Positions 20,873-41,706 of a stretch of DNA of 44,134 nt are shown piece after piece (the stretch's first letter is position 1; each line of letters begins with the position of its first letter). The translations under genes and the position numbers were made by a program. A model generated the notes under the pieces. That model searched no databases. It was given only the letters and a program-made list of their open reading frames with translations, and was not told the DNA's origin. This stretch comes from Frankia nepalensis. Its GTDB lineage: Bacteria > Actinomycetota > Actinomycetes > Frankiales > Frankiaceae. The stretch is taken from positions 1 through 44,134 of the forward strand of contig NZ_JADWYU010000221.1 of assembly GCF_016786325.1 (NCBI RefSeq). The letters are read 5' to 3'.

Positions 20873-21907
20873 ATGCCTATCGCGACGCCAGACGTCTACG
20901 CCGAGATGCTCGACCGGGCGAAGGCGAACGCCTTCGCCTACCCGGCGATCAACGTGACCTCGTCGCAGACGCTCAACGCCGCGCTGCGCGGCTTCGCCGA
21001 AGCCGGTAGCGACGGCATCATCCAGGTATCCACGGGTGGAGCCGAGTACCTGTCCGGATCGACGATCAAGAACATGGTGCTCGGCGCCGAGGCGCTGGCC
21101 GAGTTCGCGCACCACGTCGCGAAGGCCTACCCGATCCAGATCGCCCTGCACACGGACCACTGTCCGGCGGACAAGCTCGACTCCTACATGCGCCCGCTCG
21201 TCGCCATCTCCAAGGAGCGGGTGAAGGCCGGCCGCGACCCGCTGTTCCAGTCCCACATGTGGGACGGCTCCGCGGTGCCGCTGGAGGAGAACCTCAAGCT
21301 GGCCGAGGAGCTGCTCGCGGACTGCAAGGCCGCGAACATCGTGCTCGAGGTGGAGATCGGCGTCGTCGGCGGCGAGGAGGACGGCGTCGTCGGCGCGATC
21401 GACGAGAAGCTCTACACCACGCCCGAGGACATGTGGCGGACCGCCGAGGTGCTGGGCACCGGGGAGAAGGGCCGCTACATGCTCGCGGCCACCTTCGGCA
21501 ACGTGCACGGGGTCTACAAGCCGGGCAACGTGAAGCTGCGCCCGACCATCCTGCGCGACGGCCAGCAGTACGTGGCGTCCAAGCTGGGACTCGGCGGCGA
21601 CGCCAAGCCGTTCGAGCTGGTCTTCCACGGCGGCAGTGGCTCGGAACTCACCGAGATCCGCGAGGCGCTCGACTACGGCGTCGTCAAGATGAACGTGGAC
21701 ACCGACACCCAGTACGCCTTCACCCGGCCGATCGCGGACCACATGCTCAAGAACTACGACGGCGTGCTGAAGGTCGACGGCGAGGTCGGGATCAAGAAGA
21801 CCTACGACCCGCGCACCTACGGCAAGTCCGCCGAGGCCGCCATGGCGAAGCGGGTCGCCCAGGCCTGCGCGGACCTGCGCTCGGCCGGCACGACGCTCGG
21901 CGCCTGA
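20873..21907 (+). CDS. fba: class II fructose-bisphosphate aldolase
   Basis: Zinc-dependent aldolase joining or splitting fructose 1,6-bisphosphate, dihydroxyacetone phosphate and glyceraldehyde 3-phosphate in glycolysis and gluconeogenesis. 344 aa, full length for the class IIA type. Marks are ALHTDHCPADKL (zinc His and catalytic Asp), VLEVEIGVVGGEEDGV, TFGNVHGVYKPG (zinc His) and VFHGGSGS with NVDTDTQYAF for phosphate binding. ATG 20873 follows CAGGAG at proper distance. In many actinomycetes this gene lies near purA and a DUF3151 gene; here the rpf region is inserted between them. Confidence 0.97.
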   Translation: MPIATPDVYAEMLDRAKANAFAYPAINVTSSQTLNAALRGFAEAGSDGIIQVSTGGAEYLSGSTIKNMVLGAEALAEFAHHVAKAYPIQIALHTDHCPADKLDSYMRPLVAISKERVKAGRDPLFQSHMWDGSAVPLEENLKLAEELLADCKAANIVLEVEIGVVGGEEDGVVGAIDEKLYTTPEDMWRTAEVLGTGEKGRYMLAATFGNVHGVYKPGNVKLRPTILRDGQQYVASKLGLGGDAKPFELVFHGGSGSELTEIREALDYGVVKMNVDTDTQYAFTRPIADHMLKNYDGVLKVDGEVGIKKTYDPRTYGKSAEAAMAKRVAQACADLRSAGTTLGA

Positions 21908-21963
21908 CCGACCCTGCCCGGGGCTCCACCGCCCGCCGCTCCGCTCACCGACCCGATCCGACC

Positions 21964-21985
21964 CGGCGCCAGGCCCACGGCGCCG
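21964..21985 (+). terminator. possible terminator after fba
   Basis: CGGCGCC (21964-21970) pairs with GGCGCCG (21979-21985) around 8 nt, 57 nt past the fba stop. No T-run. Confidence 0.4.
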
Positions 21986-22060
21986 CTCGCGTCCGGCGGT
22001 CAGGCGGGCGGTGGGCCCCGTCCGCTCCCACCGAGCCTTCTCCTCTTCCTCTTCTCTCCT

Positions 22061-22096
22061 CTTATTCCTCTCTATCCGCTTATTCCTCTCTATCCG
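22061..22096 (+). repeat. two identical 18-nt repeats in a pyrimidine tract
   Basis: CTTATTCCTCTCTATCCG occurs twice in a row. It lies within a strongly pyrimidine-biased stretch (about 22037-22130) rich in CTCT and TCCT, unlike the rest of the window. Confidence 0.85.
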
Positions 22097-22412
22097 CGAG
22101 CCGTGGCCGTTCCTCTCTCCGCTCTCTCCGCTAGCCGCGGCCGCGGACATGTCCGGGCCGAGGCCGCAAGGGGCTCACCTCACGCCTTCGTCGCGGGAAC
22201 GGGCGGACGGCCGCGTCCCGTGGCGCCTCCGGCCACGGCTGCTCCCTTCGGTCCGCGACGCTCCGGCTCATCACCGCTGATTCGCGCGCGGATCCGGCGG
22301 ACTTCACGTTCGCGGTGCCCGCCGAACGCCGATCTCTCGACGTGGGTTCGAGGCAGGACAGGACGGGGCGGGCCGATCCCGCCCGGCACGAAGATCAAGA
22401 AGCCGGCCCGGC

Positions 22413-22475
22413 GGTCGGCGGTCGGCGGTCGGCGGTCGGCGGTCGGCGGTCGGCGGTCGGCGGTCGGCGGTCGGC
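22413..22475 (+). repeat. nine perfect copies of GGTCGGC
   Basis: A 7-nt unit is repeated nine times without change. It lies outside any supported gene. Such perfect short repeats expand and shrink by slippage, so copy number should differ between strains. Confidence 0.95.
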
Positions 22476-22576
22476 GACTGTATACATTTCGCGGCGCCCA
22501 GCGCGGCCCAGGCACCCACGCGACAAGATCCACGCAGGGCGCTCCCAGCTCCTCCGCGATCTTGTCGGGATCACCC

Positions 22577-22774
22577 GACCGCTGATTCGCGCGCACAACC
22601 GCCGATCATGAGTCGCCAGGAGCCGCGACACCCCTCCTGATCATCAGACCCGTACGCCGTTCGGCGCTTCCTGTCCGTTTTGTCCCCGAGTTCCCGTACG
22701 CATCTGACGATCTACGGACCAGGCCGGGCCAAGACCCAACGAAGATCGCCACATGCGTGCGCGGATCGGCGCCG
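22577..22774 (-). mobile_element. MITE-like element, copy 1 (~198 bp, inverted ends)
   Basis: The ends are 31-nt inverted repeats, 22577-22607 and the complement of 22744-22774, sharing the core ATYCGCGCRC followed by ARCGATC-like ends. The interior aligns colinearly with the element at 37468-37664 when read on the minus strand: an AGATCGYCAGAT block 62 nt from the end in both copies, then GGACAAAACGGACAG at 89 nt (88 in the other). By eye the copies are roughly two-thirds identical. It has no coding capacity. It could be a non-autonomous transposon or a repeated structured RNA. Confidence 0.7.
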
Positions 22775-23524
22775 CGGGATCCGCGCACGTGAACGTCCAC
22801 CGGATGCGCCACAGCACGGCGAGCCAGCGCCTCCTGTGCCCGATTGCCGGCCGCGCCCGCCGGTGGTCACGACCCAGCCGGGCCCATGGTCCCGGGAAGG
22901 CTGGAATAAAGATCACACAGGACGGCGGAACGGGCCGGCCTCGCCGGGGTGGTACCGGCCCCTCGATGGCCATGTGGCCTGTGCCGTCCGCCGGGGCGAG
23001 CCGGCGGACACCGACGGTCGCCTGGGCCACCGTCGGGCCGGCAGGCACATCCGGCATAGTCACTATCCGCAAGATTCACCACACAGTGTGCCACTTTCAC
23101 GGATCACGCCAGGATCACTCCGCCCGGGAGGGCGAGGTGGCGAGCCCAGAAGATCCAGAACTGCCCGTACCCGACCAACTACCTTCGGTCGCGCATTCGG
23201 GACGCGTCCGGCGGATGTAGCCAGGATCGCATTTCTCGCGAGTCCGGCCCGAGGCACTCTTTCGGGCGGCAGACTGGTAGGTTTCTTTTCGCGTGCGACA
23301 GGCGGGCCACACACCACCCGCGCATGGCGCGCGATCTCTGTCAAAACCACTTCTTGGGGTGGGAAACGACCGCCGGCTGGATCTTCGGCGGCGAGTGACG
23401 ACACGCCGGTGGCGGACGCCGCGAAATTTAGATGAGCGCGCGCACGCGCGCGTTAGCAGTGTTAACAGCGGGTTTCAAGAACCGACACGCCGGTGTGGCC
23501 TTTTTCACGTGCCCTATTCGGTGC

Positions 23525-23554
23525 TTGTCGCCACGCCGCGGAATGTGGTTATGG
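23525..23554 (+). promoter_or_regulatory. promoter-like sequence before riboswitch 1
   Basis: TTGTCG (23525-23530), an 18-nt spacer and TTATGG (23549-23554) precede the c-di-AMP riboswitch by about 90 nt. Confidence 0.4.
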
Positions 23555-23642
23555 TCTTCGCCGTGCCTGACGACAGGACAGGCATCCACCGGGCGGCACG
23601 CCGAATCCTGCCCCCGCCCGGCGAGTTTTGAACCAGCGGCAG

Positions 23643-23962
23643 GAACGGGGGACCCGAATTCCGGACGCCAGGACCAGAGACCCTGGAAGAAACCGGGCAT
23701 CGCCAGCGCGGCTTCATAAGCGCCGCGCCGGGCTGGCCCGAGAAGGCGTCCTTGGGGTGAAGCCGACCGACATCCGCGATCGTTGGAAGCGCGCCAGACC
23801 GCGCTCTTTCAAGGACACATGACGGAGACGTCGCGTCGCCGGGCTATACGAGCCTTTCCAGCTAACCCAATCGACCGATGACACACGGTGCGTGAAGGTG
23901 ATGGAAAAGGCTCGCTCTTCCCCAGCCCGAACCCGACAGCTCACCTCGCAGGCGTGGGGAAA
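23643..23962 (+). ncRNA. c-di-AMP (ydaO-type) riboswitch upstream of rpf gene 1, enlarged
   Basis: The conserved ydaO segments appear in order: ACGGGGGACCCG near 23646, CCTTGGGGTGAAGCC near 23750, and CAGCCCGAACCCGACAGCTC near 23923, with GCAGGCG at its end. Actinobacterial rpf genes are known to be controlled by this riboswitch, which lowers expression when c-di-AMP binds. Compared with the second copy, this one has about 70 extra nt in the first variable arm and about 100 in the second. The ribosome site of rpf starts directly after the aptamer, so folding could mask it. Confidence 0.85.
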
Positions 23963-23974
23963 GGGCAACCTCGT

Positions 23975-24802
23975 ATGTCCGAAGCACGCACCCCTGGCCG
24001 ACATCCCGTGCCGGGCGGGCGTTTTGCCCCGCCATCGGCCGACCGACCGACCGCCGGCACCACCGGCGCGCGCGGCCGGGCCAGTTCTCCGACCGCCAGA
24101 ACCGCTCCGCCCGCCCGGCGTGAGCCCCGGCGGTCTCGGCCTGCCGTCACCGGCCCCAACCGGAGGCTCCGGCAAACTCTCGCCGCGGCTCCCGTCATCG
24201 CCGCGGCCGTCGGCGGCACGCTGGCGCTCGCCTCACCCGCCAACGCCTCGTCCAACTGGGCCGAACTGCGCCAGTGCGAGTCCGGCGGAAACTATTCAAT
24301 CAATACCCGTAACGGTTACTACGGCGCCTATCAGTTCTCGCTGTCCACCTGGCGGAGCCTTGGATATTCGGGGCTGCCAAGTGACGCGCCACCGGCGGTT
24401 CAGGACGAGGCCGCGCTGCGGCTCGCCCAGCGTTCCGGATTCGGCCAGTGGCCGGTGTGCGGCCGCGGAATGGGCCCCGACCAGCTCGCGCCGGGCGCCA
24501 GTTCGCCAGCCCCTCCGGCACCGCCGGCACCTCAGGCCGCCCCCGTGGTCCCGCTGTCGCTGGTCGTCCAGCCGGCCTCGACGACGCTGGCGCGGCTGCC
24601 GTTCACGACGGCCCTCGTCGGCGAGTACCGCGCGGACGTCGCGTCCTGGCAGGCCCGCATGAACGAGATCGGCTACCCGCTCGCCGTCGACGGCCACTAC
24701 GGGCCGCTATCGGCCGCGGCGGCCAGTTCGCTGCAGGCCGCGAAGGGCCTGGCGGTCGACGGAGCCGTCGGCCCGGAGACCTGGTCGGCCACCTTCACCT
24801 GA
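23975..24802 (+). CDS. resuscitation-promoting factor (Rpf) 1, secreted muralytic enzyme
   Basis: 275 aa. Rpf proteins cleave peptidoglycan and help dormant or sporulating actinobacteria resume growth. A long Arg/Pro/Ala-rich N-terminus precedes a signal helix (about 66-88) ending SPANA. The Rpf transglycosylase-like domain is at 93-165 with catalytic E102 in RQCESGGNYSIN, and C101/C162 as the likely disulfide. After a Pro/Ala linker the C-terminus (about 215-275) is a peptidoglycan-binding-type repeat (IGYPLAVDGHYGP, LAVDGAVGPETW). The frame is open from 23888, but that part lies inside the riboswitch; ATG 23975 after GGGGAAAGGG is the real start. Confidence 0.93.
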   Translation: MSEARTPGRHPVPGGRFAPPSADRPTAGTTGARGRASSPTARTAPPARREPRRSRPAVTGPNRRLRQTLAAAPVIAAAVGGTLALASPANASSNWAELRQCESGGNYSINTRNGYYGAYQFSLSTWRSLGYSGLPSDAPPAVQDEAALRLAQRSGFGQWPVCGRGMGPDQLAPGASSPAPPAPPAPQAAPVVPLSLVVQPASTTLARLPFTTALVGEYRADVASWQARMNEIGYPLAVDGHYGPLSAAAASSLQAAKGLAVDGAVGPETWSATFT

Positions 24803-25398: not shown

Positions 25399-25490
25399 CC
25401 GGTACTACTCGCCCGTCCTGGGCGGGTCGCGCGGGCGGACGCCGAATCCCGCCCCACCCGCGTGCACGGAGCACGTATCCGCTTGGGCGG

Positions 25491-25636
25491 GAGCGGGGGA
25501 CCCACTTTCGGGCGCGGCCTGGCCGCGTCCTTGGGGTGAAGCCGGTCGGCCGGCTCGCGCGACACCGCGCGGGCGGGTCCACACCGGCCGGGCATTCCCA
25601 GCCCGAACCCGACAGCTCACCCCGTAGGCGCAGGGA
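25491..25636 (+). ncRNA. c-di-AMP (ydaO-type) riboswitch upstream of rpf gene 2
   Basis: Compact copy. AGCGGGGGACCCA (25492-25504), CCTTGGGGTGAAGCC (25529-25543), CAGCCCGAACCCGACAGCTC (near 25599-25618) and CCGTAGGCG give the full set of conserved ydaO blocks. The ribosome site (AGGGAAGGA) and ATG follow within about 15 nt. The two riboswitches share their conserved blocks but not the variable arms. Confidence 0.92.
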
Positions 25637-25645
25637 AGGACCGAT

Positions 25646-26386
25646 ATGCCGTCTGAGCAGACCGGTGACTCCCGGCCCAGCCGCCGGGCCAGCGGCCGGC
25701 ATCGTGCCCCCCAGGGGCCGTCGTCGACCGCCCGCCTGCTGCGCACCACCGGCGCGGTGACCGCGCTCGTCGGCGGCGGCCTCGCGGTCACCGCGGCGCC
25801 CGCCCACGCGGCCACCCCGGAGGACTTCGCCAAGCTTCGCCAGTGCGAGTCGGGCGGCAACTACGCGATCAACACCGGCAACGGGTACTACGGCGCCTAC
25901 CAGTTCGACAAGCGGACGTGGCAGGGCCTGGGTTACTCCGGTCTGCCCCACGAGGCCGCCCCGGCCGTCCAGGACGAAGCGGCCTACCGGCTCTACAACT
26001 CGCGCGGCTGGTCTCCCTGGCCGGCCTGCGCCCGCAAGCTCGGTCTCACCAACAACGGGCAGATCGGCGTGTCCTCGTCGGGCGCGGCCGGCAACCTCCA
26101 GCAGGAGCCCGTGAAGCCCGCCATGACGCTGGACAAGGCGCAGCAGGAGATCCAGCAGGCCGGCTTCGGCGGCACGATCTCCACGGCCGACGGTGGCGAG
26201 GTCCGCGCCGACGCGTACGTCTGGCAGCACGAGATGCGCGAGCAGCGGTTCGCGCTCACCGTCGACGGCAAGTTCGGCCCGCAGTCGCAGGGCGTCGCCG
26301 CGCTCTACTCGTACCTGACCAAGGTCAGCGACGGCCAGCCGGGTGTCGTCGGCGAGAACCTCTGGAAGGCGACCGTCGAGAGCTGA
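25646..26386 (+). CDS. resuscitation-promoting factor (Rpf) 2, secreted muralytic enzyme
   Basis: 246 aa. A basic N-terminus (RRASGRHR) and signal helix end at APAHA (about residue 55). The Rpf domain (57-133) has catalytic E68 in RQCESGGNYAIN and C67/C128 for a disulfide. The C-terminal part (about 160-246) again looks like a peptidoglycan-binding unit (EQRFALTVDGKFGPQS) but is diverged. The Rpf domain is clearly paralogous to rpf 1 (YYGAYQF, LGYSGLP, PAVQDEAA in both), so the two riboswitch-rpf units look like an old tandem duplication. ATG 25646 has AGGGAAGGA upstream. Confidence 0.95.
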   Translation: MPSEQTGDSRPSRRASGRHRAPQGPSSTARLLRTTGAVTALVGGGLAVTAAPAHAATPEDFAKLRQCESGGNYAINTGNGYYGAYQFDKRTWQGLGYSGLPHEAAPAVQDEAAYRLYNSRGWSPWPACARKLGLTNNGQIGVSSSGAAGNLQQEPVKPAMTLDKAQQEIQQAGFGGTISTADGGEVRADAYVWQHEMREQRFALTVDGKFGPQSQGVAALYSYLTKVSDGQPGVVGENLWKATVES

Positions 26387-34916: not shown

Positions 34917-37385
34917 ATGCCCAGACGATCCCCAGAGCAGACCGCCGGCCAGCCCGCCGGCCACCCCGCCCCGGCCCGGTCGCCCTCGGGCGCCGAGGCC
35001 CGTCCCAGCCACCTCGCCGCCCGGGCCGCCCGCTGGAGCGTGCGGCACCGCAAGCTCGCCGTCTTCGGCTGGCTCGGCGTCGTCGTCGGCGTCCTGCTGA
35101 TCGGCAACCTGATCGGCACGACGACCCTCAAGGAGGAGGACTGGCTCCTCGGCGAGGACGGCCGCGCCCAGCAGACCCTGCGCGACCACGGCTTCGTCAG
35201 CCACGCCGGCGAGAACGTCCTCATCCAGCTCCCGACGGCCCCGGCGGGCGGCCCGCTGACCGACCCGGCGGTGTCCGCCGCGGTCACCGACGTGGTCACG
35301 CGGATCCAGGCCACCGGCGAGGTGACCGCGGTGCGCGCCCCGGTCGCCGCGCCCGGCGCCACCGAGGACCCGGGCCTGGTCTCGACCGACGGCCGGTCCG
35401 TGCTGGTCACCTTCGACATCACCGGCGAGGTCGACACCGCGGCCGACCGGGTCGAGCCGGTGATGGACGCCGTCACCGCGGCCGGCGCGGCCCACCAGGG
35501 GCTCGCCGTCGAGCAGTTCGGCGACGCCAGCAGCGAGAAGGCGCTCGACGAGACGATGGGCGACGACTTCCAGCGGGCCGAGATCTTCTCCATCCCGATG
35601 ACGATCGCGATCCTGCTGGTCGTGTTCGGCGCGCTGGTCGCCGCCCTCGTCCCGGTCGCGCTCGCGCTGACCGCGTTCGTCGGCGCGCTCGGCGTCGTCG
35701 CGTTCACCAGCCGGCTGATGCCGACCAACGAGATCGCGACATCGGTCATGCTGCTGATCGGCCTGGCCGTCGGCGTCGACTACGCGCTGTTCTACATCCG
35801 TCGCGAGCGCGAGGAGCGCGCGAAGGGCCACAGCCCGAAGCAGGCCCTGGAGATCGCCGCCGAGACTTCCGGGCACACCGTGCTGGTCTCCGGCCTGACC
35901 GTCGCCGTCTCGCTGGCCGGCCTGATGATCACCGGGATGAGCGCGTTCACCGGGATCGCGATCGGCACGATGGTCGTCGTGCTGGTGGCGCTGCTCGGCT
36001 CCCTCACCGTCCTGCCCGCGCTGCTGTCGATGCTCGGTGACCGGATCGAGCTCGGCCGGCTGCCCTGGCACCGCCCGGCCGCGCCGGACGCGCCGCGGTC
36101 GCGGCGGGCCCGGCGGGCCGCGCGCCGCGCCGCCCGGGCCGGGACAGCGGGTGGCGACACCGCCGCGCTTACCCAGGTGCTGGGCGCCACCATCGCCGCG
36201 GATCGCGCGGCCCCCGACGCGGCGGGCCGGCCGGGCAAGGTCCGGCTGCTCGACCGGCTGATGCGCCGGCCGGGGACGGTCGCCGTCGTCACCGGCGGTC
36301 TGCTGGTCGCGCTCGCCGTGCCGACGCTGGGCATGCACACCGCCGAGCAGGGCGTGTCCGACCTGCCCCAGGACATCCCGATCATGAAGACCTACCAGCG
36401 GATCACCACCGCGTTCCCCGGCGGCCCGACCCCCGCGGTGATCGTCGTCTCGGCCCCCGACGTGACCGCCGCCCCGGTGACCGCGGCGATCGACGACCTG
36501 CGCGCCCGCGCCATCGAGGCCAAGGTCGGCTTCGACCCGATGGTCGTCACCGTCAGCGAGGACAAGCAGGTCGCGCGGGTGCTGCTGCCGCTGGCCGGCG
36601 GGGGCACCGACGACGCTTCCATCGACGCGGTCCGCGCGCTGCGCGACGACCTCGTGCCGGCGACCATCGAGACGGTGCCGGGCGCGAGCGCCGACGTCGG
36701 CGGCTGGGCCGCCGGCTCGCTGGACTTCAACAGCCAGCTGAACGTGCGCACCCCACTGGTGATCGGATTCGTGCTGATCCTGGCGTTCGGCCTGCTGCTG
36801 GTGGCCTTCCGCAGCGCGGCGGTCGCCGCCATGGCGGTCGGGCTGAACCTGCTGTCCGTGGGCGCGGCGTACGGCCTGCTGGTGCTGATCTTCCAGCACC
36901 ACTGGGCCGACGGGCTGCTGGACTACACGGCGACCGGCACCATCGCCAACTGGATGCCGCTGATGCTGTTCGTGATCCTGTTCGGCCTGTCCATGGACTA
37001 CCAGGTGTTCCTGCTCTCCCGGGTGCGGGAGGCCCGGATGGCCGGCCAGGACATGCGGACGGCCGCGCTGACCGGCCTGCGCCGCAGCGCCGGCGTCGTG
37101 ACCAGCGCCGCGATCATCATGGTCGCGATCTTCGGGATCTTCGCGACGCTGTCCCAGGTCAGCATGAAGCAGCTCGGCATCGGCCTCGGCGCCGCGATCC
37201 TGATCGACGCGACGATCATCCGGGTGCTGCTGATGCCGGCCCTGCTCACCCTGCTCGGCGACCGCGTGTGGCGGCCCAAGGCCGGCGCCACGCCCGCAGC
37301 CGGCACCGGCGCGGGCGACCTCCCGGCGGCGACTCTCCCCGCCCAGCAGACCGGGCAACTCCGAGCCCACTCACACACCAGCTAA
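34917..37385 (+). CDS. MMPL-family (RND-type) membrane transporter, second copy
   Basis: 822 aa, predicted proton-driven exporter similar to the ActII-3/MmpL group. A ~35-residue cytoplasmic N-terminus precedes the first membrane helix (LAVFGWLGVVVGVLLIGNLI). Loop domains follow at about 60-215 and 480-610, each before a five-helix block. The proton-relay motifs GVDYALFYIRREREE and SMDYQVFLLSRVREA are intact. A basic Arg/Ala stretch (about 385-410) links the halves. It is only distantly related to the MMPL gene at 13022 and has no lipoprotein beside it. ATG 34917 has no strong ribosome site. A 13-bp hairpin follows. Confidence 0.92.
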   Translation: MPRRSPEQTAGQPAGHPAPARSPSGAEARPSHLAARAARWSVRHRKLAVFGWLGVVVGVLLIGNLIGTTTLKEEDWLLGEDGRAQQTLRDHGFVSHAGENVLIQLPTAPAGGPLTDPAVSAAVTDVVTRIQATGEVTAVRAPVAAPGATEDPGLVSTDGRSVLVTFDITGEVDTAADRVEPVMDAVTAAGAAHQGLAVEQFGDASSEKALDETMGDDFQRAEIFSIPMTIAILLVVFGALVAALVPVALALTAFVGALGVVAFTSRLMPTNEIATSVMLLIGLAVGVDYALFYIRREREERAKGHSPKQALEIAAETSGHTVLVSGLTVAVSLAGLMITGMSAFTGIAIGTMVVVLVALLGSLTVLPALLSMLGDRIELGRLPWHRPAAPDAPRSRRARRAARRAARAGTAGGDTAALTQVLGATIAADRAAPDAAGRPGKVRLLDRLMRRPGTVAVVTGGLLVALAVPTLGMHTAEQGVSDLPQDIPIMKTYQRITTAFPGGPTPAVIVVSAPDVTAAPVTAAIDDLRARAIEAKVGFDPMVVTVSEDKQVARVLLPLAGGGTDDASIDAVRALRDDLVPATIETVPGASADVGGWAAGSLDFNSQLNVRTPLVIGFVLILAFGLLLVAFRSAAVAAMAVGLNLLSVGAAYGLLVLIFQHHWADGLLDYTATGTIANWMPLMLFVILFGLSMDYQVFLLSRVREARMAGQDMRTAALTGLRRSAGVVTSAAIIMVAIFGIFATLSQVSMKQLGIGLGAAILIDATIIRVLLMPALLTLLGDRVWRPKAGATPAAGTGAGDLPAATLPAQQTGQLRAHSHTS

Positions 37386-37396
37386 CCCACTCGTTC

Positions 37397-37437
37397 CTGT
37401 GCCCGCCCTCGCCGGCTCCCCGGCAGGGCGGGCACAG
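37397..37437 (+). terminator. terminator after MMPL gene 2
   Basis: CTGTGCCCGCCCT (37397-37409) pairs over 13 bp with AGGGCGGGCACAG (37425-37437), 12 nt past the stop, with a 15-nt loop. Confidence 0.75.
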
Positions 37438-37467
37438 CCATGTCCGTCAAGCCAGCGCCGCAACCAG

Positions 37468-37664
37468 GATCGCCGATCCGTGCACACAACCAGCGATCAT
37501 CAATCCGTCCCAGCCCCGCCTCTCTGGAAGATCGCCAGATCTGTGCGAAGTTCAGGGACAAAACGGACAGAAATCGCCGAAGGCCGCACACATTTGACGA
37601 TCAAGGATGCGCCAGGCCTTACATACGAGAGTGATCATCCGATGTGTGCACGGATCAGCGATCC
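37468..37664 (+). mobile_element. MITE-like element, copy 2 (197 bp, inverted ends)
   Basis: Left end 37468-37498 reads GATCGCCG, ATCCGTGCACACAAC, CAGCGATC. The right end 37634-37664 is its inverted counterpart, with GATCGCTG, ATCCGTGCACACATC, GGATGATC on the minus strand. The cores differ at one of 15 positions. The interior matches copy 1 (22577-22774, opposite strand) in order and spacing, including GGACAAAACGGACAG at 37556-37570. It is GATC-rich and non-coding. Flanks CAACCAG and CAACAG are similar but not a clear target duplication. This copy has the better-preserved ends. Confidence 0.75.
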
Positions 37665-38377
37665 AACAGCCCTGGCAAGATCCACAGGGAGTCTTCGGCC
37701 TTCACGTAATGACCACAGAAGGCCGCGGACCCGCGATGGATCTTTCGAGAGGAGCGGGTGGTCGATGACATCCGCGACGGGGGTAGAGGATCACCAACAT
37801 CACCACCGGTGATTGCGACGAAGGTGACCCCGCCGCGCGGGCGCGCCGCACGTCGCAGCTGGCGTCGCCGACATGGACGGCGCGTGGGGCGACGGCGCGG
37901 CAGATCAGGGGCCCAGTAGCGCCGACAGCAACGTCAGCGACCGGATCCACGCCCAAAGATGAGCCCGATCCGCCCGATCATGCCGATGGCCGACACGGGG
38001 GCCGCCAGGCTGGCCAGCACGACAGAACACTCACCGCCGCCACGCCATAACTTCAGCCAGTCCAGCACCGTGTCCCCCGCGCGGGGGACACGGGCAGACC
38101 GACGCGAGGCGCGCCTCCCCGGGGTCGACGAGATAACCGCCCAGTTCGTTGCCTCCCGCTGCCGCCTCGAACCACACATCTGCTGGCAGAGGGCGAGGTG
38201 ACACGACCCGCCGTCCAGCTCCGGATGCCTTCCGCGCCACGATGTCCCCCATTCGGGCTACACATTGCCCCCGGACCGGGCTACGCTGTCTCCAGCGCGT
38301 CTGGAATGACAGTCGCCACCGGCGGAGGCCTGCCCGACCGAGGCGGGCGATGGCCGACACCGACGGGAGGCCACCCG
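37665..38377. other. gene-poor stretch before the response regulator
   Basis: Small frames exist on both strands but none resembles a known protein. It holds an ATCACC-ACC-GGTGAT palindrome (37799-37813) and the perfect 26-bp palindrome at 38068-38093. Decayed genes cannot be excluded. Confidence 0.45.
38068..38093. promoter_or_regulatory. perfect 26-bp palindrome
   Basis: The left arm is CCGTGTCCCCCGC and the right arm is its exact complement GCGGGGGACACGG, with no spacer. As RNA it would form a very stable hairpin; as DNA it could be a dimeric operator. It lies 285 bp before the response-regulator gene. Confidence 0.6.
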
Positions 38378-39019
38378 GTGACCGAGGCCGTGATCAGGGT
38401 CGGCGTCATCGATGATCACCCTATTGTCCTGCATGGACTGGAAAAAGCCCTCCACGAGCAGGAAAATCTAATGATCACCGTGACGGCAACCGACCTCGGT
38501 AATTTCTTCGATGGCCAGGAGGCACTTCCGGATGTGGTACTGCTCGATCTCGACCTCGGGGATGGCTCTCGGCCGGCGGATAATATCCGGCGGTTGATGG
38601 AGGCAGGAGTCTCGGTTCTCGTCTTTTCGGCGGCGGCGCATCCGGCGACAGTTCGCGCTGCGATTCGCGCGGGCGCTGCCGGCTATATCACCAAGACCGA
38701 CGCGCTGGAAGACCTGATGTCGGCCATCAGATCCGCGCGCTCGGGGAGCGGCTGGGTCTCCCCGGCCCTGGCCTTCATCATGCTGACGGACGACGCCCCG
38801 AGCAGGCCGCAGTTGTCGACGCAAGAACGGGAGGTTCTCAGGCTGTATAGCACAGGCCTTCCCGTGAAGGTGGTCGCGAAGCGCATGGACCTTTCCCCTG
38901 AGACAGCGAAGGAGTACATCGCTCGCGTCCGCAGGAAGTACCGCGACGCGGGTCGCGACGCGCGCAGCAAGATCGACCTACGACTGCGGGCCGTTGAGGA
39001 CGGAATTATTCCGGAGTAG
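38378..39019 (+). CDS. NarL/LuxR-type response regulator
   Basis: 213 aa, two-component transcription factor. Receiver domain 1-120: acidic pocket D12-D13 in VIDDHP, phospho-acceptor D57 in VVLLDLDLGDG, and conserved K106 in GYITKTD. A LuxR-type helix-turn-helix (about 145-205) contains LSTQEREVLRLYSTGLPVKV and MDLSPETAKEYIARVRRKY; the recognition helix has ETAKEYI where most relatives have ATVKTHV. GTG 38378 has GGGAGG at 7-nt spacing; the frame is open to 38198 but that part is not receiver-like. The cognate kinase is the next gene, 113 bp on. Codons are less GC-rich than in the neighbouring genes. Confidence 0.9.
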   Translation: MTEAVIRVGVIDDHPIVLHGLEKALHEQENLMITVTATDLGNFFDGQEALPDVVLLDLDLGDGSRPADNIRRLMEAGVSVLVFSAAAHPATVRAAIRAGAAGYITKTDALEDLMSAIRSARSGSGWVSPALAFIMLTDDAPSRPQLSTQEREVLRLYSTGLPVKVVAKRMDLSPETAKEYIARVRRKYRDAGRDARSKIDLRLRAVEDGIIPE

Positions 39020-39132
39020 CCAGGATCCCGGAGATCATCCATCCGCCACTCCACGAGCCTGTCAGCGTCGAAGGAGACCTGAAATCTATCTCCGTTCGGA
39101 CGGCCCATGACGACTCCCCACTGTGAGCGTCG

Positions 39133-41706
39133 ATGAGCACCCGCGCTCAAGACGCGTTGGCTGCGGTGCTCTTCCGTGGGCTGGCGGTCCTGCGTGCCCT
39201 CGCGGCGGTTTTCACGGTTTCCTACGTCGCGATCTGGTGGGGTGCCTTGTATCACCCGCGGCCATGGGCCCTGGTTGTCCCGGGCATCGTGGCCGCCTGG
39301 AATCTGTACTGCGCGGTGGCGGCTGCCCGCCGGGCACCTCCGCGCGCTGTCGTGGTCGCCGACATCGTCATCGGTTGTCTTGTCGGGCTGACGGCCCCGT
39401 GGACGGTGCCGGACGCGTCGGTGGGAGACACGAGTTCGTGGGTCCTGCTCGCCGTCCTGCTGGCCGGAATGAACGCAGTCATCGCACTACGCGCCGTCTG
39501 GGCGCTGATCGCCATGGTCCTGCTAGGCGCCGCTCACCTGTGGCCGGCCATCGACTACCGCCCACAGGTGCTCACATCGACCGCGCTGATGCTGTTCGTC
39601 GGCGCCGGGCTGAGCCAGGCGACGGCGCGGCTACGACGAGTGGCGCTGGAGGCCGACTCCTGGCTGGCGGCCGTCGCGGGCCGAGCGCGTGCCGAGACGA
39701 TAGCGGTGGCCCGGGCCCGGGCCGACCGCGCGCATGAGCGCCTTCTGCACGACACCGTTCTGAACACGCTGGCTGGTCTCAGCCTCGGAGGCGCGGTGGC
39801 TACGGGGGCGGCCGACTCCGAGACGCTGGCGCAGGTGCGGTCACGATGTCGGCGAATCATCGCGCTGGTCGAGGGCTCACTGGACGGCTTGAGGACCGGC
39901 GACGAGACCTCCGGTGACCCCGATGTGCTGCTGGACGCGAGGGTGGCCGAGCTGGCGGAGGACGCGACGACAGACGGCCTGACTGTGACCGTCGGTTTCA
40001 CGCGGACCGGCCAGCCGCGATGGCCAGAGCGAGCCGCTCCGGCCGACAGGCCGTCGGTCCTGACGGAGGAGCAGATTCCGGCCGACGTGGTTGCCGTGCT
40101 CACCGCGGCGCTACGCGAGGCACTGAGAAACGTTCAGCGGCACTCGGGCGAGAACTCCGCTCGTATCAGCGTCACGCGGTGGACCGACGGGGTACAGCTG
40201 AGGATCGACGACGACGGCCGCGGTTTTGACGCCACCCGTTTTGGGCCAGATCCGCTCTCCGCGGTGCCCGGCGGCGGCGACCACCACCCCGAGGACATTC
40301 GCCTGGGTATTACGCGGTCAATCCATGGCCGAATGGCAGACGTGGGCGGATGGGCGCAGATCTTTTCCACTCCGGGACTTGGCACCCGCGTCGAGCTGAA
40401 CTGGCAACGACCCCATTCACCCATGGTGCCGCCCGCGGACGCCACCGACCTGCGCCAGTCCTATGAGCGCGCCGCTCGTCGGGCAGCAGGCGTCGCGGTG
40501 GTCGTCGGTGTCTCTCTCCTCGCGCTGCCTGCGGTCGCCTACCGCGGGCTCTCACCGCCGTCGGTGGCGGCGCTCGCCCCGTTCTCGCCGGCTGTGTCGC
40601 TCGTGCTGTGGTTGCTGGTTGCCGCCCTCGCGACGTGGGGTGTCGCCATCATCTGGCGGCGGCCACTCACGGTGATCGAGGCTTTGGTCACGCAGGGGAG
40701 CACCGTTCTCCTAGTGCTCGCCGGCGCCGCAGCCACCTCCGGCGGCGACGTCATCAGCATCTACAACTGGGTGGCCATCGCCGCCCCGGCATTGCTGCTG
40801 TTGCCAGTCACGGTCTCGCGGCCTTGGAAGCAGTGGGCGGGCGGGGTCATCGCGGTGGTTGTGACCCAGTTGGTACTCGGCCTTGGCCGGGTCGGGACCG
40901 CACCGCTCGAGCTGGTTCGCCTCATAGGAACCCTGTACGGGTTCTCGGTGATGCAGCTCTTCATCGCCATGATCTGGCCGGCGCTGCGGACCACCGCCGA
41001 GTCAGTCATCCGGGCCGCCAGGCTGGACGCCGAGCTGGACGCGGGTCAGGCCGCGGCGGCCGCCGTACGGCGAGACCGGGCGCGCAGGCTCGCTCGGCTC
41101 AACCGTGACGTGCTGCCGCTGTTGCGGGCGATCGCGGATGGCCTGGCCGATCCGACCGATGAGAGCAATCGCAGGTTGTATGCGGGCCGGGCGCGGGCAG
41201 TGCGCCGCATGCTCGCGGGCTCAGGGGGACGCGCTGGCCCGCTGGCTGAGCTGGAGACCGCGATCGACGCGGCTGAGGCCCGGGGCGTCGTCGTCACCCT
41301 GCAGGTGGCCGGCGACTTCGCCGCGATTCCCCGGGACGCGCGCGACGAACTCGTTGACCTTCTCAGCGAGACCCTGGAAGGAGCGCCTCCCGGTCGGGTG
41401 ACGATCACCCTCCTTTCCGGCGGAGCATTTGGCGAAGGTTACGTTTCCTATCCAGCGACGGTACCACCTCCCGGTCGTTTCACCGGCGGATCTGACCAGC
41501 CAGCGAAACGGGTGGACACGGGTTCCCGTTCAATCTCCGTCGATGCCAGCGTCGAGGAGGGAACGGCAATCGTCGAGCTCCGGTGGCCTCTGCTTCCTCC
41601 TGATCCGCCGCAGCCAACCCCTACCGACGAGAGGCATCAGGAGAATCCGAATCGCGGCAAGACAGCAAACGTCCCGTGCACGCGCACCCGGGATGTCGCC
41701 CCATGA
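39133..41706 (+). CDS. two-module sensor histidine kinase (active module plus degenerate module)
   Basis: 857 aa membrane protein. First half: about five hydrophobic segments (15-175), then a HisKA_3-like helix with H206 in ERLLHDTVLNTLAG and an ATPase domain with N333 in EALRNVQRHSG and DDDGRGFD at 359-366. This is a complete LiaS/NarX-type kinase. Second half: another block of hydrophobic segments (about 450-625), then a helix RRDRARRLARLNRDVLPLLR aligned with the phospho-acceptor helix but lacking His, and a C-terminal region without N or G boxes. So one active kinase is fused to a membrane-bound pseudokinase. ATG 39133 has only a weak ribosome site. Partner: the response regulator at 38378. 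Confidence 0.85.
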   Translation: MSTRAQDALAAVLFRGLAVLRALAAVFTVSYVAIWWGALYHPRPWALVVPGIVAAWNLYCAVAAARRAPPRAVVVADIVIGCLVGLTAPWTVPDASVGDTSSWVLLAVLLAGMNAVIALRAVWALIAMVLLGAAHLWPAIDYRPQVLTSTALMLFVGAGLSQATARLRRVALEADSWLAAVAGRARAETIAVARARADRAHERLLHDTVLNTLAGLSLGGAVATGAADSETLAQVRSRCRRIIALVEGSLDGLRTGDETSGDPDVLLDARVAELAEDATTDGLTVTVGFTRTGQPRWPERAAPADRPSVLTEEQIPADVVAVLTAALREALRNVQRHSGENSARISVTRWTDGVQLRIDDDGRGFDATRFGPDPLSAVPGGGDHHPEDIRLGITRSIHGRMADVGGWAQIFSTPGLGTRVELNWQRPHSPMVPPADATDLRQSYERAARRAAGVAVVVGVSLLALPAVAYRGLSPPSVAALAPFSPAVSLVLWLLVAALATWGVAIIWRRPLTVIEALVTQGSTVLLVLAGAAATSGGDVISIYNWVAIAAPALLLLPVTVSRPWKQWAGGVIAVVVTQLVLGLGRVGTAPLELVRLIGTLYGFSVMQLFIAMIWPALRTTAESVIRAARLDAELDAGQAAAAAVRRDRARRLARLNRDVLPLLRAIADGLADPTDESNRRLYAGRARAVRRMLAGSGGRAGPLAELETAIDAAEARGVVVTLQVAGDFAAIPRDARDELVDLLSETLEGAPPGRVTITLLSGGAFGEGYVSYPATVPPPGRFTGGSDQPAKRVDTGSRSISVDASVEEGTAIVELRWPLLPPDPPQPTPTDERHQENPNRGKTANVPCTRTRDVAP

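Follow-up and report, generated by a model that had tools for sequence, protein, structure and literature searches.

Extent and anatomy of the repeated element in the window

The window, by which we mean the whole stretch of 44,134 bp analysed here, contains two copies of a palindromic element designated MITE1. Copy A was placed at about 22548..22810 on the minus strand and copy B at 37436..37700 on the plus strand, in both cases by alignment to a 43-copy consensus and by profile match, and the limits of copy B are likewise approximate because its outer left arm is badly decayed. Pairwise alignment gave 74% identity to the consensus for copy A and 78% for copy B. A sequence-only reading of the window had described two look-alike stretches of about 197 bp, 22577..22774 (minus) and 37468..37664 (plus), with inverted ends and shared internal blocks. 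The likeness is real and the ends and blocks were found as claimed; used as a query against the host genome, the first stretch recovered the second at 37471-37603 on the plus strand (70% identity, E = 3.7e-9). These limits fall short of the true ends, however, and enclose a core made up of the inner inverted repeats without the outer arms. The whole unit measures about 261-262 bp, is palindromic over nearly its full length and is bounded by an outer inverted repeat, GGCGCTTCCCGTGGATC ... GATCCACGGGAAGG, situated about 30 nt farther out on each side in both copies, and the consensus carries both outer and inner terminal inverted repeats. When the copies were aligned in a common orientation, the interior was seen to consist of GATC half-sites in alternating orientation around a AAAACGGACAG centre. 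In copy B the half-site AGATCGCCAGATCTGTGCG, at 37529..37547 (plus), matches the half-site pattern exactly, and copy A has half-sites at 22695..22713 (minus) and, in the opposite orientation, at 22743..22761 (plus), each with two mismatches to the pattern.

According to our own codon-bias gene caller, copy A lies within a gene gap at 21907-24545 and copy B within another at 37385-39166, so that the earlier description of the setting as gene-poor was a fair one. No predicted gene is contained in either window copy, in agreement with the non-coding status first proposed, and none lies mostly inside any of 45 MITE1 copies of the host genome. A 7-base microsatellite (cggtcgg) occupies 22412-22477, about 70 bp from copy A, and the left end of a MITE1 copy elsewhere (L018) has been replaced by an array similar to this microsatellite. 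Elsewhere in the window, a c-di-AMP riboswitch of the ydaO/yuaA leader type (44.3 bits to Rfam RF00379) at 25470-25645 on the plus strand immediately precedes a predicted gene at 25646-26386.

Copy number, distribution and age

The host genome comprises 10,728,764 bases (10.7 Mb) in 398 contigs. Searching it with 22577-22774 (minus) returned 42 matches, namely the query, the second window copy, 38 other places and two opposite-strand matches, the last of which fall on places already counted. When the MITE1 consensus was used as the query, the best match reached 88% over 259 bases, the best 40 of 193 candidates being scored. A profile search identified 48 elements covering at least 200 of the 357 profile positions, 45 of them in the host and three (L032, L039 and L094) in congeners, the latter excluded from the host counts; as the consensus searches scored 40 of 193 candidates and 13 per genome, the copy numbers are lower bounds, at least 45 for the host. 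That no further copies would exist anywhere, a possibility raised in the sequence-only reading, did not come true, many more being present in the genome. The most diverged host copies, L071 and L078, were dropped before the analyses of conservation, phylogeny, end sharpness and covariation, which were based on 43 copies. Mean identity to the consensus over these 43 was about 79%, calculated on an aligned block that includes short flanks, and the decay was star-like, terminal branches contributing 10.6 and internal branches 1.6 of the tree length.

The consensus was used to search 58 genomes, with the best 13 candidates scored in each. Full-length matches were obtained in the host alone, and six further genomes gave short, weak matches (E from 2.8e-5 to 9.4e-4). 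More diverged relatives were detected by the profile search in three congeners, G006, G003 and G005. The terminal 20-mer had 11 single matches in the named genome collection, and CTA stands before just one of them, the match in Frankia sp. AgKG'84/4; within the flanking stretches examined, no facing partner (up to 4 mismatches, 0.7-3 kb away) was found for any of the 11. A phage origin of MITE1 was rejected for want of any phage match, and a plasmid origin likewise, the sole match being a weak one of 48 bases to a Streptomyces plasmid. MITE1 belongs as a new family to a familiar class of element, the bacterial MITEs, and puts on record a sizeable set of GC-rich hairpin MITEs from a Frankia-like genus. 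No paper on MITEs in Frankia was among those listed in our literature search, and the main text of a survey of Frankia insertion sequences (PMC2770080) does not mention them, the word being absent from it.

Ends, target sites and empty sites

Conservation among the MITE1 copies starts and stops abruptly at both ends, at a C-Y-A motif, and the bases outside are near-random. The left flank is CTAC or CTAG, and the right flank CTAG, TCAG, CTGG or others. With regard to target duplications, proposed earlier as a check on mobility, CTAG is present on both sides of three of the 16 smaller elements with related ends, several others show near forms and one of the 16 (L066:805) looks like a chance match, while MITE1's own flanks are CTAG-like, decayed and unequal.

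Empty sites were sought in a 17-kb host stretch (L079:1500-18500) that carries two MITE1 copies and has matches in all seven congeners compared (G001 to G007). At the second copy, alignment showed that G004, G005 and G006 have the same convergent gene pair and lack the element between its members; the flanking matches there are spaced 113, 198 and 105 bp apart against 464, 464 and 472 bp in the host. At the first copy, the element is absent between the same genes in G003 (243 bp versus 532 bp in the host). The corresponding gap is as long or longer in G001 and G002 (586 bp in G001; 982 bp in G002 versus 542 bp in the host) and holds other DNA, the left part is inverted in G004, G005 and G006, and the loss in G007 is larger than the element alone. 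Empty sites in relatives, the lack of which had also been envisaged, therefore do exist at the level of gene pairs, the spacers being too diverged for a junction to be defined at base level.

The two window stretches are thus very probably old copies, since decayed, of MITE1, a non-autonomous DNA transposon that was moved in trans and used a CTAG-like target, because the family has at least 45 copies, sharp CTAG-like ends, empty sites at gene-pair level and, as described below, no compensatory change. The earlier alternative of a mobile element or a structured RNA accordingly stands in its mobile half, on the dispersal of these copies, their ends and their empty sites. A transposase now lost or unrecognised would have recognised the MITE1 ends (GGCGCTTCCCGTGGATC...) and inserted the element in trans at CTAG-like sites.

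Search for the transposase

A transposase with matching ends, which the sequence-only reading had proposed to look for, was sought and none was found: no autonomous element with MITE1 ends was present in the list of ends, which is complete at up to one mismatch, or among the matches listed at up to three mismatches. Those matches included at least two facing end pairs 0.7-3.5 kb apart, one in the host (1.05 kb) and one in G006 (2.99 kb), each formed by one MITE end and one 3-mismatch match. Inspected by eye, the host pair encloses an ABC-transporter-like gene, and the G006 pair encloses genes resembling those of a regulator, a methyltransferase and an acetyltransferase, with nothing transposase-like among them.

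An IS5-family element of 1094 bp was identified in the host (L230:900-1993, G000:C353) by Pfam DUF4096 and DDE_Tnp_1 and NCBIfam IS5_3. It lies between two CTAGs, contains two overlapping reading frames and has one close copy in the host according to a protein search. Its ends and those of MITE1 are alike in the outermost seven bases, GGCGCGT, and in a subterminal GATC, and they differ in the remaining terminal bases; CTAGGGCGCGTA ends occurred in four of the 30 loci examined, in the host, G003, G004 and G005. This element is the nearest candidate for an autonomous partner. Since it sits at CTAG and shares its initial GGCGCGT with MITE1, an IS5-type transposase is the likely mover of MITE1, whose own mover may have been lost or may have become too diverged to recognise. 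The end sequence expected of an autonomous IS5-type partner for MITE1 is GGCGCKTCCCGTGGATC. Two other types of mover were considered and rejected. The ends of IS701-type (DDE_5) elements, e.g. TACTGCAACGGCAG and TAGGACTTTGTTAGG, mismatch those of MITE1, with four distinct CTAG-flanked elements of this type in 30 loci, and the ends of IS630-type (DDE_3) elements, TGCGCTGTCCACGAAGG, also mismatch, one of four host loci being at CTAG.

Positions relative to gene ends

In 11 of 45 MITE1 copies the element ends no more than 2 bp from a stop codon predicted by the same codon-bias gene caller. Of 143 CTAG sites in 406 kb of host loci, 39 were stop codons, 81 were intergenic and 23 fell within genes, these loci having mostly been chosen for holding an element and some of them overlapping and being counted twice; because 39 of the 143 sites are stop codons, the 11 of 45 is in keeping with a CTAG target. 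The neighbouring genes present 50 3' ends and 36 starts to MITE1; 22 of the former and none of the latter are no more than 60 bp away, compared with 13% and 12%, respectively, for random intergenic points drawn from the same loci. The absence near gene starts suggests that copies close to promoters have been lost. Many copies probably landed exactly at gene ends, with the gene still ending in a stop, since many CTAG sites of the genome are stop codons. MITE1 would thus be a case of a CTAG-targeting element landing on stop codons while leaving the gene a stop.

Conservation of the GATC half-sites

GATC occurs 7.6 times per MITE1 copy, compared with 0.9 times in shuffled copies and 2.0 times per 261 bp of the window. 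Conservation is 93.5% in the GATC columns and 76% in the others, and on the FastTree phylogeny the GATC columns show 1.97 changes per column on terminal branches against 5.10 for the remaining columns. This conservation on terminal branches departs from plain neutral decay and poses the puzzle of why GATC-bearing half-sites outlast the rest of MITE1. The half-site AGATCGCCAGATSTGTRCG, allowing up to two mismatches, was found 62 times in the host, mostly inside MITE1 copies, and 7, 1, 2, 3, 3, 17 and 0 times in G001 to G007, i.e. in six of seven congeners, while a reversed control pattern had no match in any of the eight genomes. In G004, G005 and G006 it occurs as independent palindromes of about 75 bp, and in G001, G002 and G003 it is part of another repeat family of several hundred bases. 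In G001, two copies of another GATC-rich repeat (L180:800-1156 and L189:801-1156) are 98% identical over 357 bp, pointing to a recent duplication, and a tandem duplication of about 300 bp in G006 (L093:1670-2290) has one 75-bp GATC palindrome per unit.

The half-sites, having changed less than the rest of MITE1, may be binding sites for the transposase or for a host protein. We consider it unlikely that the palindromes are a selected host element, once spread by transposition and now kept in place as protein-binding or GATC-methylation sites or as 3'-end hairpins, although the conservation of the GATC columns, the presence of the half-site in most congeners with an empty reversed control, and the excess of 3' ends over gene starts next to the copies all speak in its favour. 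So do three orthologous pairs of 75-bp palindromes that are 70, 86 and 97% identical, with 55, 64 and 49% over the downstream 75 bp, where shuffled sequence gives about 50%. These pairs were chosen through the motif, a biased sample, and are therefore only suggestive; the upstream 75 bp, at 63, 84 and 73%, include one flank (84%) that is equally conserved, being coding. Moreover, the CTAG target explains the stop-codon positions, the lack of compensatory change means that the fold is not what is kept, and the length of the terminal branches may conceal active lineages which the tree does not separate and which keep the half-sites for transposition. By the same weighing, it is improbable that the half-sites are a genus-wide selected binding or methylation site whose placement was the reason for recruiting transposable palindromes to the 3' ends of genes. 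If they were, they would be a GATC counterpart, with a working role in these actinomycetes, of the CcrM-associated intergenic repeat (CIR) of Caulobacter named in PMC10969869. Like CIR, MITE1 is an inverted repeat between genes, most copies of which retain a short self-complementary motif. CIR contains GANTC; the motif of MITE1 is GATC, unlike that of CIR.

Related small elements and the origin of the 262-bp unit

A second family, MITE2, measures about 157 bp and combines ends related to those of MITE1 with a different interior. Its host copies (L085:2994-3156, L090, L084 and L133) include two that are 97% alike, one at 87% and one cut by a contig end, and two relatives in G002 (L139 and L140) show 90 and 88%; MITE2 is the younger family. 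Host contig C154 ends inside MITE2, as palindromes tend to break assemblies. Minis of 40-80 bp with MITE1-related ends and other interiors were also found.

Such small elements raise the question of whether the 262-bp element is itself a nested composite, produced by small palindromes inserting centre-in-centre, with the 198-bp core independent within a mini-MITE. Four MITE1-type minis (L082, L083, L087 and L159, 59-73 bp) carry both outer arms and lack roughly the core first described, and the inner hairpin type stands alone in G004, G005 and G006, as such an origin would have it; but deletion of the centre of an unstable long palindrome would yield the same minis, and copies such as L018, in which an outer arm is missing, can result from decay or truncation, so that this origin has little probability in our view.

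Folding and covariation

The MITE1 consensus folds as a single long hairpin, at -171 kcal/mol in its first version and about -156 kcal/mol in the 43-copy version, where shuffled letters give -106 +/- 5. Such a fold would suit a family of repeated structured or cis-regulatory RNAs, but a palindromic transposon has a hairpin fold by descent. Across 94 consensus pairs in 43 copies, 2784 cells were Watson-Crick; column shuffles gave 2770 +/- 15, and 58 of 300 reached the observed value. Doubly changed paired cells numbered 85 versus 75 +/- 7 (reached by 32 of 300). The 31-copy set gave 1965 Watson-Crick cells versus 1955 +/- 14 and 74 double changes versus 67 +/- 7. G-U cells did not clearly outnumber A-C cells in the 43 copies (397 versus 361), the singly changed cells of the 31-copy set numbered 226 G-U and 272 A-C, and RNAalifold found no long common hairpin in the 31-copy alignment. 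The covariation analysis proposed in the sequence-only reading thus gave no excess over shuffles in 43 copies, and the fold is not what selection keeps, because no compensatory change accompanies it. With no match to the element in an Rfam search in addition, the structured RNA was rejected as hardly credible, and the second half of the earlier alternative falls with it.

Comparison with known systems

REPs and BIMEs consist of short palindromic half-sites in alternating orientation, present in many extragenic copies. MITE1, a non-autonomous transposon by the preferred reading, likewise has alternating short palindromic half-sites and many extragenic copies; unlike those of REPs and BIMEs, its half-sites are parts of a 262-bp unit with sharp CTAG-bounded ends. 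Actinobacterial IS5-family insertion sequences with CTAG repeats are described in PMC9241763, and MITE1 is like them in its CTAG-type flanks, to which the host IS5 element adds GGCGCGT and the subterminal GATC, and unlike them in having no transposase gene and a different remainder of the terminal repeat. The prokaryotic type II MITEs covered in PMC10969869 (Correia, Chunjie and QMITE2) are shorter than 500 bp, non-coding and intergenic, with terminal inverted repeats and tens of copies; their target duplication is lost with age and their truncated copies resemble REPs. Compared with that account (PMC10969869), MITE1 is similarly shorter than 500 bp, non-coding, dispersed in tens of copies and intergenic with terminal inverted repeats, whereas it is GC-rich and they are AT-rich, its inverted repeat spans nearly the whole element instead of about 4-30 bp, and its CTAG-like target is unlike those of the type II MITEs compared. 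QMITE2 is placed there mostly in 3' untranslated regions (PMC10969869), and MITE1 is like it in its 3'-side placement.
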